From: Absidia repens
Lineage: Eukaryota; Mucoromycota; Mucoromycetes; Mucorales; Cunninghamellaceae
Reading direction: 5' to 3'
Length of the DNA: 64,000 bases
Assembly: GCA_002105175.1 (NCBI GenBank)
Contig: MCGE01000001.1
Location: 1,054,001 to 1,118,000, forward strand
The translations under genes were made by a program, and so were the position numbers. The stretch's first letter is position 1. Every line of letters starts with the position of its first letter. Of this stretch, positions 16,298-25,989 are shown piece by piece. Under the pieces are notes generated by a model. It ran no database searches and had not been told where the DNA came from. It worked only from the letters and a program-made list of their open reading frames with translations.

Positions 16298-17140
16298 GTA
16301 CAGTGTTTCCACGTTGACTTGTCGCACTTCCCGAAATCTGTGCCGCACTTCTACAAACTAATTGTCGGGCTATTAAATATGGGTGGCGTTTTTTCCAGAA
16401 ATGGATATTGGGATTTCACATTTGGGCCTGTCGCAGAGCTTAAAAAATAGAGACCACAATGTGGAATTTTTCCACAAGTTCTGGAATCATTCCACAAAAA
16501 AAAAAATTCAAGGTAAAAACAGCAGTTTTTATTGGATGTGATAATATTGGAATACAAAAAAAAAAAAAAAAAAACAATGGAAAAATAAACTACACTAAAT
16601 AGGGGCACCATTGAGACAATCATCGAAGCAGGAGATAGAGTGACGGATATATCCATGGAGATTTTTGTGAGTAACCATATTACAAGCTTCCGCTATTCTT
16701 GAAGAGAGCGTGTCCACATCCAGCAGTTCTTCCCTCTTGATAGTATACTTCACCTTGGACCAAAATTGTTCAGTTGGATTCAGTTCTGGAGAGTACCGCG
16801 GGAAATAAACACATTTGTAGCCACATTCAGTAACAATCAGTTCATTATTCTTCGACATGTGGATGGGAGCGTTGTCCATAACCAAATAACAATCCTTGAA
16901 TTGAGGGTGTTTGTCCATAATGTCCATTGTATCCTTCAAAAACTTGATGTAGTGGTTGGCATGATGACAAATTCGGAGACGGTTCCTAAAAAATATATAT
17001 ATGGGACTTCCGATTAACTTCCATGATTTGTTTCCAGGAACTTTCACAAACTTACAACTATAACAAAACCCACTCCCTGAGGATGGACCCAAAGGTACAT
17101 TGCAATCTATGAACTCGAGCGGGAGTAGCGTACGCAACAT
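16298..17140 (-). mobile_element. Degenerate Tc1/mariner-type transposon remnant
   Basis: The minus frame 16595-17140 encodes the C-terminal half of a DDE_3 (Tc1/mariner/IS630-like) transposase: YLVMDNAPIHMS (second catalytic Asp), PRYSPELNPTEQFWSKVK (the PE.NP.E motif with the third acidic residue) and a terminal RHSISCFDDCL. The first third of the catalytic domain is not in frame, and no in-frame ATG is present, so it is a broken copy. The sequence starting TACAGTGTTTCCACGTTGAC at about 16297 looks like a transposon terminus, but a matching opposite end was not found. Confidence 0.7.
16410..16500. repeat. Short palindromic GTGGAA/TTCCAC cluster
   Basis: GTGGAATTTTTCCAC forms a 6-bp stem hairpin, followed by another ATTCCAC. 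It lies between the putative transposon end and the transposase stop, so it may belong to the element terminus. Confidence 0.4.
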
Positions 17141-17169
17141 AAACAGTAATCATTTGCATTGATGACCAA

Positions 17170-18971: not shown

Positions 18972-19117
18972 GCTCCCGTCACGAAACAACCTTTTTTATA
19001 TGTATATACTTCCTTTTTATTAGTCCCATTATTCCATCATTATTACATATTTGATCTTCCAATAAAAACAATATTTTTTTACCTTTTTTTGTTTGTTTTC
19101 TTTTTGTGTATGTTTGT

Positions 19118-19136
19118 GTGTGTGTGTGTGTGTGTG
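19118..19136. repeat. GT microsatellite
   Basis: About nine GT dinucleotides in a row in a T-rich stretch upstream of the Fanzor-carrying element. Confidence 0.8.
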
Positions 19137-19216
19137 TTTTGCTGGCGACACCTTGATACCGACAAGCCCAAACCGAAAATGCGACATTTGAACCTCCGCC
19201 TTTATTTTTTAGAATG

Positions 19217-19301
19217 GGATTGCTAGGGGCACAGGGTGTTTTACACTAGAAGTCGGGAAAGAAGATTACTAGGCGCACAGTGCGTTTAGGAAGTCGGGAA
19301 A
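19217..19301 (+). repeat. Left terminal repeat with tandem second unit
   Basis: Two diverged units, 19217-19260 and 19263-19301, share GATT(G/A)CTAGG(G/C)GCACAG and end with (G)AAGTCGGGAAA. Only the outer unit matches the right terminus over its full 21 bp. Confidence 0.6.
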
Positions 19302-19319
19302 TAAAAGATATTTTTACAG

Positions 19320-19458
19320 TGGTTATTTTCTATCTACTGCTCTGGTAGCGGATGCAATTTTGTACATTGATGAACTGCCGTATGTGTACGTTTTCGTTGA
19401 AACGGAATCCCATTTGCCATTGATTGGAGTAGATAGTCGCAAACAGGGATATTATTAA
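19320..19458 (+). pseudogene. Orphan terminal exon, unknown protein
   Basis: Starts right after a TTTTTACAG acceptor and is open for 45 codons (YFLSTALVADAILYIDELPY, then VFVETESHLPLIGVD and RKQGYY stop). It has clear protein character but no upstream exon. It lies inside the inverted-repeat-bounded segment, in front of the Fanzor gene. It may be a relic of a host gene or of an element gene. Confidence 0.35.
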
Positions 19459-19680
19459 AAAAGTAAGTTTCACCAAGGGTCAAGAAAAAAAAAAGGAAGA
19501 CAATAGGAAAGGAAAATTCATGTCATTGTGTATGAATCTGGAGTAATGGCGTTTTTGAATATTATTTAAAAAGTGGGAAGGTTACGTGGAACTCGTGAAT
19601 AACACCGGAATCAATAAATGAGGATGACCTGTATTGATTAAAAAGAGAAACCAATATACATATATATATATATTGATTTA

Positions 19681-19700
19681 CTGTACTGTACTGTACTGTA
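19681..19700. repeat. CTGTA microsatellite (4 units)
   Basis: Four CTGTA pentamers directly in tandem, about 130 bp upstream of the Fanzor start codon. Confidence 0.85.
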
Positions 19701-19826
19701 CGGGTTTGACTTGTTCCTGCAATGAAAAGAGAGCGGTGTTTCAAATCAATGAATGTGTCCTATTTTTTATTATTATCTTTCTTTTCTCTTTATTTTTATT
19801 TTTACTATATTATTACACCTTTGATC

Positions 19827-22800
19827 ATGAATGATGTCTTCGACCAAGTTATTTCCCCATCGCGACTTACCAACCGACAAATAATCAACAAAATAAAGCA
19901 GGACAAGGCTTTAAGACTTTCCTCGATCCAAGCGTCCTCTGGTAAGTCCAAATCATTAGTGATCATAGCAAGCCATACTCACATATTTTGTGCATCTTTG
20001 CGTTTTTTACAGAACCATGCAACTCATGTGGCAGAACAAATCATAAAAATGCAACCTCCCCATTATGCCCCAACCACTCACAGCCACGGTCAGGTAAGAG
20101 ACACGTGCATATACTAAAAGCAGTTCCTTCCTAATCGTTTTATGGTTTATCATTTATAGACTCGCCTAGAAGAGCGAAGCGAAAATCAACCGCTGTCTCA
20201 AAAAGCATAGCGAAGCAAGCAAGAACCGAGGGCTCAAAAGATCTGCGATCGAAATATCGTAATGAAGATACTCAAAAATGCCCAGGGTGCGTGAAGAAAA
20301 AAATCTATGACCCAGCAAACCCTCACTCCAGCGCAGCATCATCACTATGTCCTGATCATATTCTGAATTTTTCTGAATTCAAGAAAACAATTTACGGCGG
20401 GTCAGAACAAATAGCTACACGGAAAGTTACTCTGGACAAATTTCTTTCTCTACGTGGTGAAAAAAGAGATCGATTCAAGGCGAACATTTTGACTCTGGTG
20501 ACTTATGTACGCGAAGTGGCCATCAAGACGCAACTCTTCATGAATTATTACTTCCTCAAGCAATTGGAATTCCAAAATAGCCTTGCTTCAGATACTGATA
20601 GACAACAAGAAGGTGCTCCCGGTGATCGTTTGGTTGAAGCAGCAGTGACATCATTGCAAGTTGAAGGTGCTCCCGGTGGTGATTTGGTTGGCACAGCAGT
20701 GGCACCGTTGCAAGTTGAAGGTGCTCCCGGTGGTGATTTGGTTGAAGCAGCAGTGACATCATTGCAAGTTGAAGGTGCTCCCGGTGGTGATTTGGTTGGC
20801 ACAGCAGTGGCACCGTTGCAAGTTGAAGGTGCTCCCGGTGGTGATTTGGTTGAAGCAGCAGTGACATCATTGCAAGTTGAAGGTGCTCCCGGTGGTGATT
20901 TGGTTGAAGCAGCAGTGACATCATTGCAAGTTGAAGGGGGCGCCCGCGGCAATCGCATTGGTTTGACTGAATCACTAGTAGAAACAACACAAGACATTCA
21001 AAATGAAGACGTGATGATGGAAGGGAATATGATGCATCCTGGTGATCTGCGAACTTTTGGAAACATTCTTATTTCTGGAGGTCTTATGGCTACTGGCAGC
21101 GTTTGGTCCGGGAAACATATCAATGTTGGTGGAAATGTTAGATCTTCCGGCGATGTGGTTGCCCAAGAAAACCTTGCTATTGACGGAAACTTAACAGCCA
21201 GCGGTGATGTTTTAGCGGGTGAATCGATAAGCATTACTGGGAATGTGAACGCATGTGGTCGTGTTGGTCTCTCTGCTGGTCAGAACCTCGACGTTGGTGG
21301 AAATATACAAGTAACCGGTGATGTGTCTGTCGGCGGAAACCTATCCATTGTTGGAGATATACTTTCCACCGGAAAGGTAGAAATAGGAAAGAAGTTAATC
21401 AAGTCTGCCAGCTCTGTCATCGTCTCCTCTGATATTTTGGAAAACATGGTACAAGATATACCGGAACAAGATATTGAGCAAACTCACGATGATCCTCAAC
21501 ATATTGGCAACTCGACCGTACTTCCCAATGCTGGACCAGTTGATGAAGATGACATTGATGACCATTTTCCTAGTTTTGTGTTTGACGACCTTCTTCAAAG
21601 CCTGGGCGAAATGGAAGCTCAAGTCGATGCCGACGTTGGGGAAGTTGTGGAATACCAGGGTGCTATGGATGATTTGGTTCAGGAAGCTCATGTCGATGCC
21701 GATGTTGGGGAATACCAAGGTGCTATTGATGACATGCTTCTGGATGATGATGTCGTCCGTGATATGAATTACTCTGGTGACGATGGTGCAGTTGATCTTC
21801 AAACAATGCGTGGTGTCAAACCGATTATGTTTTCAGACAACTTCGTCTATTCTTGCATACAGTTGGTGACTGGAAAGAAAGTGACAAACGCAAACAAAAA
21901 ATTACCAGTGGACTTGATGGAAAAGACCTTTGCTGATTACAAGAAAGAATTTGCTGACAACGACAGTGATATGGACAGATGCATGGTGCTTCAAAAACCC
22001 AAGTTTGGGACCGCGGCGGCTTTGGTTGGATTATCAACTACAATATCTACATCGATGAAAAACTGCGTAGTGGAGCATTTTGAAGGACACTGTATAAAGT
22101 ATCTTGAATTTCAACTAAGACAACAAATGAAGGTAAAGTAAAATAAAAAATCACAGCAAGGAGGTTATTATTTGGACATGTTTACTTATGTATGTTGTAC
22201 ACTTTTTATAGGATATCAAGACAGAAGACGTGAAAAAACTTGGACTATATTTGTATGATCGTTTAGCTGGTGCGAAGAATGTGGTGTTCCCTTACAGTGT
22301 CGACCTTACAAATGATCTACAGCAATGCTTAGATAACATATACGACAACACAGACCTAGGTCCTCGTCCAATTACTCTACGATCTTTAGTATCAAACATA
22401 TGCGACTATCAGATGGTGTTATACAAGATCCTCCAGCACTACGAAAACAGCAATGCGGTCGACTCCCACCAAATTGCAACTGAAGTAACATATTTCTGGG
22501 TGACTCGAAAGCTGGAAACCTTCGACTTGTCTTCGTTATCCAAAACCCAAAAACGAAAACTCGCTCACCAAACACGCCAAGCTATGAACAACAAGAACAG
22601 CAAAGCAACATACATCTCAATGCCTATACCAAACGAGCTACTGTTGAAGATTACTGAACTTATTGAACAAACACGAAGTCAAATCAAGAACTCTTTGGAA
22701 TACAAGGCTGGTGCGACAATTCCTGTTGATCAATGTTTTAATCCATCCCGTGCAAGTCTTCAGGCCGACCACCGTCTTTTTTCAATTTTTCCTAATCGAC

Positions 22801-24289
22801 ATTTGGGAATGCCTTTTGTGGATATTTCTTTCCTAAGTTTGCTGTCTCTCAGAAACCATTCCGTGGATTTCAAGGACGATAAAATCGTAGCGCCGAAAAC
22901 AAAAGGGAAACATCGAATACGGGACGAATGCCGAATATTCCATGAAATATTTGACTTTAGAAAAGTGGGTCTTCAATCAAGGTAAAAGAAAAAATTATCA
23001 ATAGGATAGCAATATCTATACTAATACATATACATATATATATATATATATATTTAAATTTAGTTTGAAGAATGTGGACCAATACGATGAAATAAACGAA
23101 AATGAGGGTGATGATTTGGATGAAACAGAACAAAATCAACAACAACATCGCCGCCCTATATTTGGAAATCATATTCGGACAGACGGACATACAGTTGACG
23201 TTTTGCTAGTACGCCAAAAACGTCACTCAGAATTACCAGACCTCTCAATGGACGACTTCACATCAAACGAACTTGATCAGCATTTTCAACTCTGGGGCGT
23301 TGATCCAGGCATCAAGGATATATTTACAGCTACGGACGGTGCAGGACAATATCGGCGGTTCAGTACCAAGGAATGGCGATCCAAGTGCGGCACTACTCGT
23401 AGATTTCGATTCCAGCAAGAAGAAAAACGACGACAGGGAATTATGAAGATCGAAAGCTCTATACCTACAACAAGAACAACATCTTCAACAAAACTCATGG
23501 CGGCCGTTAAATACCTTATCAACAACCTTCCAAGACTGACGGAATTCTATAGTATGGTCCATTGGCGAAAACATCGGCTGCATGCCTACTCAGGTCGACA
23601 GAAACTGGACCAAGAAATGACAAACGTGTTTCTGGATGGTGGTGAAAAATACAACCGCAAACCTGGAACTCAATCTCGAACATCGCTCCATGCAAAGTAA
23701 GGGAAAAAAATAAAATAAAAAAAGATAGCATTCTCATTTCACTTATTTTGTCACTCCTCTTTAGTCGTTTCAGACGTGAACCTTTTTCCGTCCACCGAAA
23801 AATACCTCTGCTAGCAATTGGTGATGGTTTCTTTCAAATGACCATGCGTGGCACAGTACCTGGAATGGTCGCTCGTCTCCGGCGAACTTTGAAGAAGGCG
23901 GAACAGAAGCATTTACTGGTAATGGTGCAAGTCAATGAAGCGTACACATCCAAGGTATTTTGTTTTAAAAAAAAAGAAAGCAATATCCTCAAAAAAGAGA
24001 AATTTGACATTTTTTTTTATTTTGTGATTAGGTTTGCTCGAAATGTTACACGAAGAATATGGTAAACAAGAAAATTGATGACGGTGACTATCGATTACAT
24101 TCGGTATTAGTCTGCTCCGACTGCAATACTACCTGGAATCGAGACGTCAATGCCTGCAACAACATCCATCACCTTGCCATATGTCTCAGTCAAGGTGCGG
24201 ATCGTCCGTCCATTTTCTGTCGATTAACCACTTCGAACCCAGCAACATCCCAACAACAATTACAGCGGCTAGATAAAACTATCCAATGA
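19827..24289 (+). CDS. Fanzor (TnpB-like eukaryotic RNA-guided endonuclease)
   Basis: Exons 19827-19941, 20013-20093, 20160-22132, 22212-22981, 23064-23696, 23765-23954 and 24032-24289 join in frame to about 1339 aa. From the N-terminus: zinc motifs CNSCG..LCPNH (aa 40-60) and CPGC..LCPDH (from aa 106); six 18-residue repeats (aa 216-323); a bactofilin-like repeat block (aa 360-480); an acidic region; then the core. RuvC-I is WGVDPGIKDI (Asp about 1060). IGDGFF sits where TnpB has the RuvC-II Glu. VNEAYTSK supplies a Glu at about 1249. A CSKC..CSDC ribbon (1256-1285) is followed by RuvC-III, NRDVNACNNI (Asp about 1292). The core fits the published Fanzor pattern with a shifted catalytic Glu. 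All key residues are present, so it may be active. The family uses a non-coding guide RNA usually made near the 3' end; none could be defined here. Confidence 0.9.
20609..20932 (+). repeat. 54-bp coding tandem repeat (6 units) in the Fanzor gene
   Basis: Six consecutive 54-bp units, each encoding EGAP-G-DLV-(EA/GT)AV-(TS/AP)LQV. Two unit types alternate (A B A B A A), so the array also has a 108-bp higher-order period. A seventh, strongly diverged unit starts at 20933. Units of one type are nearly identical, pointing to recent expansion. All units keep the frame. Confidence 0.95.
21040..21400 (+). other. Bactofilin-like beta-solenoid repeat block within Fanzor
   Basis: About 120 residues of short repeats of the pattern GN(I/L/V)..(S/T)GDV..G..(I/L).(I/V)GG: GGNVRSSGDVVAQENLAIDG, NLTASGDVLAGESISITG, VGGNIQVTGDVSVGGNLSIV. 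Glycine/asparagine turns with alternating hydrophobic residues are the hallmark of right-handed beta-helices such as bactofilins and some phage fibre domains. Such a domain is unexpected in a Fanzor protein; it may be for self-assembly (inference). Confidence 0.7.
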
Positions 24290-24379
24290 TCGAAGGGGTA
24301 AGTGAGACAAAAGTGGAGGAAAAATTTTATACTAATTTTTTTTTATATATTATGAACGACCCTGTGCGCTTAGCAATCC

Positions 24380-24410
24380 GTGGCTTTTCATTGGCTGAAT
24401 GAAAAGCCAC
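24380..24410. promoter_or_regulatory. Perfect 13-bp inverted repeat just outside the Fanzor element
   Basis: GTGGCTTTTCATT, a 5-nt loop GGCTG, then AATGAAAAGCCAC. It begins at the base after the right terminal repeat and lies 80-110 bp upstream of the RPP2 start. The loop side contains ATTGG, an inverted CCAAT box. It may be a promoter element of RPP2 or a structure linked to element insertion or its RNA. Confidence 0.5.
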
Positions 24411-24489
24411 TGAAAAACTTCGAACCAAAACCTGTTTTTTTATTTTTTTTTTTTTCTCTTCCTCTTACTTTTTATATTCATCTTATATC

Positions 24490-25028
24490 ATGAAGTTCCT
24501 CGCTGCCTACCTTCTCCTCGTCGCCGGTGGAAAGACCGAACCCTCTGCCGAAGATATCACCAAGCTTTTGGGCTCTGTTGGTGTCGAAGGTGATCAAGCT
24601 CGCTTGACCTCTTTGCTCAAGGCCCTCGAAGGCAAGACTGTCGAAGAAGTAAGTGCCATCTTCAATTCTATTTTTTAATCATATCATAAATATATGTGTA
24701 TATTCAATATATAAGGTTACTGTTACTCATTCTTCTTCGTTTTTGTACTTGTACAGGTCATCGCTGAAGGTTCTTCCAAGCTCGCCTCCGTCTCCTCTGG
24801 TCCCGCTGCTGGCGCCGCTGCTGGTGCTGCTGCTGGTGGCGCTGCCGCTGATGCTCCTGCTGAAGAAGCCAAGGAAGAAGAAAAGGAAGAATCCGATGAT
24901 GTAAGTGAATTATCATTATTATCATTATCTGCATAGATGAATGACGGGGAAATGATCATGATATGACTTTTTTTTTCTCACACGTGCCTTTTTTTTTTTA
25001 GGATATGGGTTTCGGTCTCTTCGACTAA
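24490..25028 (+). CDS. RPP2: 60S acidic ribosomal protein P2
   Basis: Stalk protein of the large ribosomal subunit that recruits translation GTPases, 109 aa. Exons 24490-24648, 24757-24900 and 25002-25028. It shows [40 protein letters not shown], an Ala/Gly hinge, an acidic tail and the invariant end [10 protein letters not shown], whose last residues sit alone in exon 3. MK(F/Y)LAAYLLL marks P2 rather than P1. The T-rich leader (24430-24480) fits a strongly expressed fungal gene. The Fanzor element ends 110 bp upstream of this start. Confidence 0.97.
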
Positions 25029-25989
25029 ACTTCTCTAGTTTAAATCAAATCATCCACCTTTGTCGTCCCCTTTTTCATTTTATTCCAATCTCTTTGTAGT
25101 CATTAATAAATAAAAAGTACCTTGACTGATTATTTTTGTATGATATTGTCTTTTGTGTTGTGATGCGTAGTAAATATGGCGTCTCCCACTCTCACTTCAC
25201 TGGATTTTTAAATCAACCTTTATATCTCTGATTTATAGATTGCACGGCTCTGCGTACTTGCACTCTCAATATTCACCATGAGCATTGACGGCAACTGAAC
25301 ATATTTTTGTGGCTCTCTTAATAGTTTCCTTTAGTACAACCACGCTTTCTTCCAAACGTATCACATAGACTGCACAAATGTAATCTATTCAGACCTGAAG
25401 ATGCTACACTAGGCACACCGTCGTATTCCAGGTGCGCCAACTCCCAAATGGAAGAGTCGCAAATAAAAATCACTCAGAACCATTCGAAAAGGATATTACA
25501 TTTTATAGTTATAGAAATTATTATGATATCCACTTCCACTATTTTTTTGAATAAAATCCAATTTACTTATCACTCATTTACTTTGCTGTCTGTTGTTTGT
25601 CTGTGTTGCCCTTATTTATTTGTCTGTATATTTATTCGATCGTAGTAGAAAAAAAAATCGTAGGCGAAAAATGAATTGTGTTTCATTGTCAACATACTAG
25701 AGACAAAAAAAAAGATTACCCACTATGTATACTAAAATAAAAATAAAAACTTTGTTGGGAAATTCATCGATACTGGAGGTATATTGAAGCTTGCTTGCAA
25801 GGAACGTCAACTAACGAAGTGATGTTGATTGTTCAGAAATTCACGTCTCCTTCTTGGCGACACCGAAAACATCGCCGTATGTGGCATCATATCTTAGCAT
25901 GCGGCAAAAAAAAAAAAAAAAAAAGGTATATTTTATTGAAGCATAAACATAAACTGCGAAGGTCAACAGCAATCAAAGAATCTAATGGT
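25029..25989. other. Intergenic, no confident gene
   Basis: The RPP2 3' region with an AATAAA-like signal near 25105, then AT-rich DNA. A minus-strand stretch near 25270-25350 reads VIRLEESVVVLKETIKRATK, but it has stops on both sides and no splice support, so it is not called. Confidence 0.4.

Follow-up and report, generated by a model that had tools for sequence, protein, structure and literature searches.

A predicted 1,339-residue Fanzor1 gene with a solenoid-like insert in a DNA transposon of Absidia repens

Within a 64,000-nucleotide stretch of the Absidia repens genome (contig MCGE01000001.1, positions 1,054,001 to 1,118,000; hereafter the window, whose numbering we use) we found an apparently intact Fanzor1 gene, on the forward strand at 19827..24289, that sits in a DNA transposon extending from 19217 or about 19263 to 24379. 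We put the probability that this is a transposon-borne Fanzor1 gene at roughly 85%, and by analogy we regard RNA-guided cutting by this particular copy as somewhat probable. The kind of element is already known, as published descriptions of Fanzor1 transposons in Mucorales date from 2013 (PMC3627910). What appears to be new relative to the descriptions we consulted is the predicted protein itself, which at 1,339 residues against about 600-860 bears out the original prediction of a length beyond most described Fanzors, and which has N-terminal zinc motifs as well as an insert of ~400 residues that is absent from the relatives compared. The inverted repeats, the broken relatives, the insert with its solenoid-like pattern and the 2013 publication were not part of the original prediction.

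Gene model and nuclease core

The predicted gene has seven exons (19827-19941, 20013-20093, 20160-22132, 22212-22981, 23064-23696, 23765-23954 and 24032-24289) that join into 1,339 codons and one terminal stop (4,020 nt), as had been predicted from the letters alone (seven exons and ~1339 codons in frame without a stop). The splice pattern predicted from sequence joins these exons through introns that all have GT-AG ends (6/6; 66-82 nt) and a GC content of 15-35%, versus 41-48% in the exons. We compared codons with eight relatives, seven of which aligned at the DNA level; differences were found at 205 of 1,036 third positions and at 225 of 2,079 first and second positions, with more of the differing codons being non-synonymous (211) than synonymous (142). 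The excess of third-position differences supports the frame and the surplus of non-synonymous codons counts against it, so that constraint on the reading frame across the relatives appears partial, which is expected with broken copies in the comparison.

Every motif named in the original prediction was located in the C-terminal part of the joined protein, and the predicted set of catalytic acids and zinc ligands is complete (D1060, E1249, D1292 and four cysteines). The RuvC-I motif DPG (23302..23310, D1060 in WGVDPGIKD) aligns with VIDPN of SpuFz1, and RuvC-III is represented by D1292 (24143..24145) in the NRD that begins at 1290 (NRDVNACNNI). Between them lies a C4 zinc ribbon (24035..24124; C1256 and C1259 in CSKC at 1256, C1282 and C1285 in CSDC at 1282), which is covered by the PF07282 match. 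The sequence IGDGFF had been placed where TnpB has its RuvC-II Glu, and this holds: IGDG (residues 1209-1212, 23817..23828) occupies that site, where family B, the genome's second Fanzor family and a closely similar Fanzor1 family with 12 loci, has FGDA. The Gly-Asp is also found there in proteins P0002 and P0003, and P0001 is without that stretch. The Glu of VNEAYTSK (E1249, 23937..23939), proposed as the shifted Fanzor Glu, lies six residues ahead of CSKC, the distance from the zinc ribbon at which the Fanzor RuvC-II Glu is placed in the published text available to us (PMC10711439), and its column aligns with DEYKTSSVC of SpuFz1. When the protein was shuffled 2,000 times, the motif order DPG...E-x6-CxxC...CxxC-x(4-8)-D, with spacings freed, never arose. 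The protein combines DPG at RuvC-I with a Glu six residues ahead of the zinc finger, as Yoon et al. (2023) describe for Fanzor1, and its spacings (186 and 22) lie outside those these authors print for TnpB (120-160 and 12-18). The Fanzor1 pattern of Bao and Jurka (2013), D-X(125,275)-[TS][TS]XX-[C4 zinc finger]-X(5,50)-RD, is also present, with 191 residues separating D1060 from the TS pair at T1252 and 5 separating the final Cys from RD.

Database comparisons covered Pfam, NCBIfam, PDB and Rfam. The joined protein matched PF07282 above the curated cut-off (8.2e-11) and the NCBI TnpB model below that model's cut-off (5.2e-9), so the significant profile match expected of a Fanzor or TnpB was obtained. 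A six-frame scan of the genome with PF07282 gave 13 matches that did not include this gene, because exons 6 and 7 each encode part of its domain. Among solved chains a single-sequence search gave SpuFz1 of Spizellomyces punctatus (PDB 8gkh; 4.4e-4), the best solved-structure match, and a profile built from the 1,339-residue protein and three homologs again ranked SpuFz1 first (8.7e-12), followed by the TnpB/Cas12-like chain LaTranC (3e-7), GtFz1 (2e-4), TnpB-like L79 (3e-4), PpFz1 of Parasitella parasitica (PDB 9cf0; 3.1e-3) and other TnpBs (4e-3 and weaker), a ranking of similarity made without phylogeny. On the motifs and profile matches taken together we classify the C-terminus as Fanzor1; the place of LaTranC ahead of GtFz1 and PpFz1 counts against this. 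Used alone, residues 622-1074 matched no solved chain at an E-value of 10. A protein search with residues 640-1339 of the full-length sequence gave no homolog at 1e-3 among the 8,000 best-ranked candidates scored, which were limited to about 740-2,340 residues, and among 840 candidates from a search with a 615-residue core query four proteins matched residues 330-614 of that query.

N-terminal zinc motifs and insert

Two zinc motifs precede the insert. The first, CNSCGRTNHKNATSPLCPNH (residues 41-60, 20018..20077), is partly kept in A. repens protein P0004; the second, CPGC...CPDH (residues 106-132, 20279..20359), aligns with family B (phmmer E-value 1e-5 over 115 frames), and residues 67-122, which overlap it, align with the relative at C11:379k. 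The insert itself lies ahead of the conserved core and consists of three parts: six young copies of a 54-bp (18-residue) tandem repeat with 90% matches (20609..20937), an older hexapeptide beta-solenoid-like region of about seven 18-residue turns (residues 360-485, 21041..21418), and an acidic stretch with 27% D+E and a net charge of -33 (residues 491-621, 21434..21826). Our genome search found no second copy of the insert, and it is absent from family B. A protein search with residues 330-530 found no homolog at 1e-3 among 430 candidates.

Same-residue matches within the solenoid region were periodic, with the observed level reached in 0/2,000 shuffles at lag 18, 0/2,000 at lag 12 and 1/2,000 at lag 6. 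The repeated residues shared codons no more often than chance (26 of 76, 24.9 expected), from which we conclude that the pattern is old and maintained at the protein level; the same observation led us to reject a recent minisatellite origin of the solenoid. Bacterial beta-solenoids such as bactofilins, the MinC C-domain and FapA likewise consist of repeating G-[DN]-[VIL]-x-x-x hexads. Residues 330-530 alone scored 6.6e-5, 1e-4 and 3e-3 against these families, all under curated cut-offs (23.5 bits against the 27.9 of bactofilin, PF04519), and with the full protein as query the E-values for the solenoid families weakened to 0.39 and 0.049. Hexads can also arise from simple repeats, as in family B, where the antisense strand of a short tandem repeat reads as GNISVGG repeats and matches the solenoid (9e-7 among 115 frames); the weak bactofilin scores therefore prove no common descent.

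Known Fanzor1 proteins offer a partial parallel. SpuFz1 has the same RuvC order with the Glu ahead of the zinc ribbon; as described in the published text available to us (PMC3627910) it has 633 residues in one frame, compared with 1,339 residues, seven exons, zinc motifs and a solenoid-like insert here. PpFz1, also a Fanzor1 of Mucorales, indicates that Fanzor1s do take up extra domains: its fusion chain has 1,259 residues with the tag and, by subtraction of chain lengths, about 860 without it. The extra domain is described as one of ~100 residues, inside RuvC, that binds cyclophilin (PMC11423790, in the part available), whereas the A. repens insert has ~400 residues and lies ahead of the conserved core. 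The portions we had of the descriptions of MCi-2 and other Fanzor1 elements of Mucor circinelloides, Rhizopus oryzae and Phycomyces blakesleeanus (PMC3627910) mention no solenoid insert; going by those descriptions, MCi-2 (11 copies, a 6-kb 99% identical 3' region and a variable 5' part) resembles family B.

Transposon ends and relatives

We place the gene in a transposon because inverted repeats flank it and the right end recurs at broken relatives. The right terminal inverted repeat (24348..24379) pairs with an outer left copy at 19217..19248, and a tandem copy of the left repeat starts at 19264, 46 bp further in, so that the true left end is ambiguous between 19217 and about 19263. The C11:577k relative begins to align only at the inner copy, and with 19150-19300 as a DNA query of the genome we matched only its own locus. 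DNA similarity to C11:577k and C16:21k stops at 24379. A 20-bp repeat pattern with up to two mismatches was found at six places in 47.4 Mb (its reversed control at none), two being the element's own ends, two adjoining Fanzor fragments (C11:577k and C16:21k) and two being extra (C56:1990010 and C1:3773597). With the right repeat also present with three mismatches at C12:897k and C1:2877k, the right end was found again at four broken relatives, and of the 10 loci counted in the element's own family (family A), nine of which were read (all but C5:391k), five show the repeat; the stretches examined at the other four, C78, C25, C36 and C11:379k, did not reveal it.

The published portions describing SPu-1, the element carrying SpuFz1, give it inverted repeats, a guide RNA located in the interval from stop codon to right end, and no gene other than the Fanzor (PMC10432273, PMC3627910). 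No convincing target-site duplication, whether of 9 bp or TA as in MuDR or Mariner transposons, was seen at the A. repens element, the TA being a point of contrast with SPu-1; for the bounds tried in two elements no shared word of at least 5 bases went beyond chance length, with TA judged by eye only. A reading of the list of open reading frames showed no transposase inside the element. In the corresponding lists for 3 kb at each of C56:1990010 and C1:3773597 we recognized no partner transposase, and neither place had a protein match to the Fanzor. A DDE_3 reading frame at 16595-17149 was rejected as the partner, as a search allowing five mismatches placed no copy of the repeat near it.

Guide-RNA region and competing readings

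The 90 nt that follow the stop codon and reach the right end (24290..24379, forward strand), the last ~45 bp of which are similar at five loci, would be the place of a guide-RNA scaffold if the arrangement in SpuFz1 carries over; the available text on SpuFz1 describes a guide RNA that lies past the stop codon and ahead of the right repeat, while 14-15 nt of the guide fall outside (PMC10432273). The predicted fold of 24230-24379 was no better than those of shuffles (z +0.64), an alignment of five 3' ends gave three pairs, none covarying, and Rfam had no match in 19000-25500. Abutting the right end, our hairpin search found a perfect 13-bp inverted repeat with a 5-nt loop (24380..24410). A Helitron2, with a hairpin beside a subterminal repeat, is not supported, as no such hairpin stands beside the four other copies.

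The lack of a guide-RNA signal in those three analyses fits the most serious competing reading, to which we give about one chance in three: that this is a recently dead Fanzor1 whose frame is still open, which is unexpressed or without a working guide RNA and whose insert arose by neutral expansion of repeats. Such a reading accepts our identification and denies function, and it gains from the remaining family-A matches that were found being broken or partial and from the young 54-bp repeats showing slippage within the gene. Set against it are the 1,339 codons without a stop, the six introns with consensus ends, the retained zinc and catalytic residues, and the solenoid amino-acid pattern that persists despite scrambled codons. 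We think it improbable that the host has domesticated an immobile Fanzor, in which case its location a short way upstream of a ribosomal P2 gene would carry weight; the P2 start codon lies 111 bp past the right end, only this one of the family-A loci found matches every exon, and a target-site duplication was not found, but both inverted repeats are recognizable and the right one recurs at broken relatives elsewhere. A misjoining of an upstream solenoid protein with a shorter downstream Fanzor, suggested by an insert seen nowhere else in the genome search and missing from family B, is very improbable given that a single intron-free frame of 668 codons (20135-22141) runs without interruption from zinc motif 2 across the insert into the first part of the conserved core, residues 622-722, to which family B has a match.

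If the transposon-borne Fanzor1 is functional, the protein would bind an RNA transcribed from the 3' end of the element, the last ~15 nt of that RNA would be supplied by flanking DNA, and matching DNA would be cut by the RuvC site D1060/E1249/D1292; a transposase acting in trans would move the element, and the cut would then help it to retain its copies. More tentatively, the N-terminal zinc motifs may add nucleic-acid binding and the solenoid may serve as a spacer or self-association module. It is a long shot that a Fanzor1 lineage took up the in-frame hexapeptide beta-solenoid and that this lets the nuclease self-assemble, for example to join transposon ends or keep multiple guide complexes at a single site, with the adjacent 18-residue repeats, of the same period, being new turns in formation.

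Fanzors, a group of RNA-guided nucleases from eukaryotes related to CRISPR-type DNA cutters, have potential for editing, and a 1,339-residue Fanzor1 that carries a solenoid-like insert and additional zinc motifs would show how far fused modules can be accommodated by the scaffold. It makes it possible to test concretely whether these modules alter targeting or assembly, and the 12-locus family B in the same fungus lends itself to the question of what Fanzors contribute to their transposons.

Gene model and nuclease core

The seven exons at 19827-24289 (+) do join in frame as originally predicted: the joined window sequence reads as one frame of 1,339 residues with a single stop at its end, and all six introns start with GT, end with AG, are 66-82 nt long and have a GC content below that of the exons. 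Exon 3 lies within a 668-codon open frame (20135-22141) in the ORF list.

Judged by sequence, the C-terminal third of the protein is a Fanzor1. The anticipated match to Fanzor/TnpB profiles was significant, with Pfam PF07282 (Cas12f1-like TNB) above its cut-off at E 8.2e-11; the NCBIfam TnpB model gave 5.2e-9, yet this is far under its cut-off. As a single sequence the window protein matched the solved structure of SpuFz1 (8gkh) at 4.4e-4. A core profile of window residues 928-1339 and three homologous database proteins (P0001-P0003), run against solved-structure chains, matched 23 chains with E up to 1, the best being SpuFz1 (8.7e-12), followed by LaTranC (3e-7), GtFz1 (2e-4), a TnpB-like protein (3e-4) and PpFz1 (3.1e-3), with TnpB and Cas12 chains also present. 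In the profile alignment to SpuFz1, D1060 falls on VIDPN, E1249 on DEYKTS, and the NRD motif on WNRD. E1249 stands exactly six residues ahead of the zinc ribbon's first Cys; a Glu in that place is what the available text of PMC10711439 gives for Fanzors, which bears out the shifted RuvC-II Glu of the original prediction. At the window protein's IGDG site a Gly-Asp is also found in P0002, P0003 and family B (a second Fanzor family in this genome, read in locus L054), and the stretch is absent from P0001. The protein search with the core query traced P0001 to Chlamydoabsidia padenii and also returned P0004 (A. repens BCR42DRAFT_468136), 174 aa of which are 100% identical to locus L059 on C11.

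Element ends and related copies

On either side of the gene stand 32-nt inverted repeats (19217-19248 and 24348-24379) with 78% complementarity. A 20-base repeat pattern with up to 2 mismatches occurs at six places in 47.4 Mb (reversed control, 0): two are the window element, two (on C11 and C16) have Fanzor fragments next to them, and the last two show none. Allowing up to 3 mismatches, a 28-base version of the repeat matches three places in the genome (control, 0). DNA similarity to both C11:577k and C16:21k ends at 24379, and at C12:897k and C1:2877k the repeat, with 3 mismatches each, lies past the last stretch similar to the window. Ten loci were counted in family A, the window gene and its relatives in this genome. 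Over the nine that were read, all but C5, the repeat was seen at five (window, C11:577k, C12, C16 and C1:2877k) and not seen at four in the stretches examined. The left end is uncertain because a second repeat copy starts at 19264, the C11:577k alignment begins only there, and a genome DNA search with 19150-19300 matched nothing except itself. We saw no target-site duplication beyond chance.

Two kb left of the element, 16595-17149 (-) is a DDE_3 transposase fragment (Pfam E 1.7e-16), which we take to be of Tc1/IS630 type. On the right, a perfect 13-bp inverted repeat with a 5-nt loop occupies 24380-24410, its first base directly after the element. It is the sole perfect hairpin in the 64-kb window with arms of at least 12 bp and a loop of 3-12 (0 in 5 simulated windows), has no second occurrence in the genome at up to 3 mismatches, and has no counterpart beside four other element copies; it may mark a palindromic target or a scar left by repair, or serve the P2 gene as a promoter site. 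That gene (24490-25028; three exons, 109 aa), whose start codon is 111 bp past the element, presumably encodes acidic ribosomal protein P2, named from its C-terminus.

The window protein matched at least 52 stretches of the genome, a lower bound because 35 of 66 candidates were scored; these sort into at least ten family-A loci, at least twelve family-B loci and at least two others. Among the matches listed, no family-A locus except the one in the window matches all exons of the gene, the others being broken or partial. Across seven relatives, which are mutually non-independent and several of them dead, our own sums gave codon differences at 205 of 1,036 third-position sites and 225 of 2,079 first- and second-position sites, with 142 differing codons synonymous and 211 non-synonymous (L061, an eighth relative without a DNA alignment, is uncounted). 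Two solo fragments, L060:3535-4126 (C78:256k) and L030:1607-2201 (C25:389k), are 96% and 92% identical to 23704-24293, start at the intron 5 A-run and stop just past the stop codon. They are nearer to the window gene than the fuller relatives compared, and share ~15 bp of 3' sequence absent from the window. Two more Fanzor-like fragments (L057 at C34:1923k, L058 at C67:576k) are ~38-40% identical and ambiguous as to family.

Family B, ~34% identical in the TNB part, comprises at least 12 Fanzor1 loci (L054, L055, L056 and nine more). It looks recently active. Over the longest match in the stretches compared, identity to L054 was ~95.6% or more in 10 of the 11 others and ~92% in C79, and the 3' ends are close to AAGTTGA...AAGCTGTA. 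By description it resembles MCi-2 of Mucor from Bao and Jurka 2013. An upstream frame in L054 resembles, by eye, an LTR-retrotransposon RNase H.

The insert and its beta-solenoid pattern

Most likely, from sequence comparison, the window protein gained ~400 residues ahead of its core. In L054, phmmer over 115 frames matched zinc motif 2 (residues 106-132) at E 1e-5 and, downstream of it, residues 622-722 at E 2e-5, but gave no match to residues 208-630 on the sense strand. At C11:379k residues 67-122 and 733-971 are just ~100 nt apart, in a broken copy that has perhaps lost the rest. P0001-P0003 start within the core and are uninformative here. A weak sense tblastn match in L054 to residues 534-671 (E 0.006) runs through stops and out of order and was taken as chance, and antisense matches to the insert came from a short tandem repeat.

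The insert comprises six copies of an 18-aa repeat (DNA 90% matching), about seven 18-residue turns of G-[DN]-[VIL] hexads found by a period test, and an acidic stretch of net charge -33. Over residues 356-486, identity at lag 18 was 0.28, equalled by 0 of 2,000 shuffles; the observed identity was reached by 0 at lag 12, 1 at lag 6, 2 at lag 36, 81 at lag 24 and 515 at lag 30. Where residues were identical at lags 6, 12 and 18, the codon was shared in 26 of 76 cases (24.9 expected). Because the repeat DNA is 90% matching and codon sharing in the hexad region is near chance, the 18-aa repeats are, on this sequence evidence, young and the turns old, although both have the same period. Residues 330-530 alone matched bactofilin (6.6e-5), MinC_C (1e-4) and FapA (3e-3), all three below curated cut-offs; in the whole protein bactofilin and MinC_C gave only 0.39 and 0.049, and the best solved structure for the solenoid region was at 8e-3. 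No further copy of the insert was found in the genome or protein searches. By its pattern, the region is a candidate beta-solenoid.

Possible mechanism and relation to known Fanzors

In SpuFz1, according to the available text of PMC10432273, the RNA scaffold takes up ~75 nt as far as the right repeat, and the 14-15 nt of flank that follow act as the guide. In the window element 90 nt separate the stop codon from the right end, and by analogy a guide RNA would arise from this 3' end with 24380-24394 as its guide part; folding and covariation gave no support for it there. The protein would then cut matching DNA via RuvC, for example the empty site that transposition leaves behind. In the ORF list no transposase was seen within the element; if none is hidden there, it would have to be supplied from elsewhere. 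Any role of the N-terminal zinc motifs and candidate solenoid in the nuclease is putative.

In the accessible parts of the sources, most Fanzor1s have 600-700 aa and PpFz1 carries a ~100-aa insert within RuvC (PMC11423790), Fanzors reach ~800 aa (PMC10711439), and Bao and Jurka 2013 (PMC3627910) describe four Fanzor1 families for Rhizopus, three for Phycomyces and ten for Mucor, some of which have MuDR-like ends. In the literature searched, no paper mentioned Fanzor together with Absidia or with bactofilin; because many journals and the supplements lay outside this search, a long Mucorales Fanzor could already be in a published list. Fanzor and Mucor do co-occur, in two papers, and the one co-mention of Fanzor and solenoid, in the text available, concerns archaeal elements. 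Mucorales Fanzor1s are known already, and the window gene is a variant of them.
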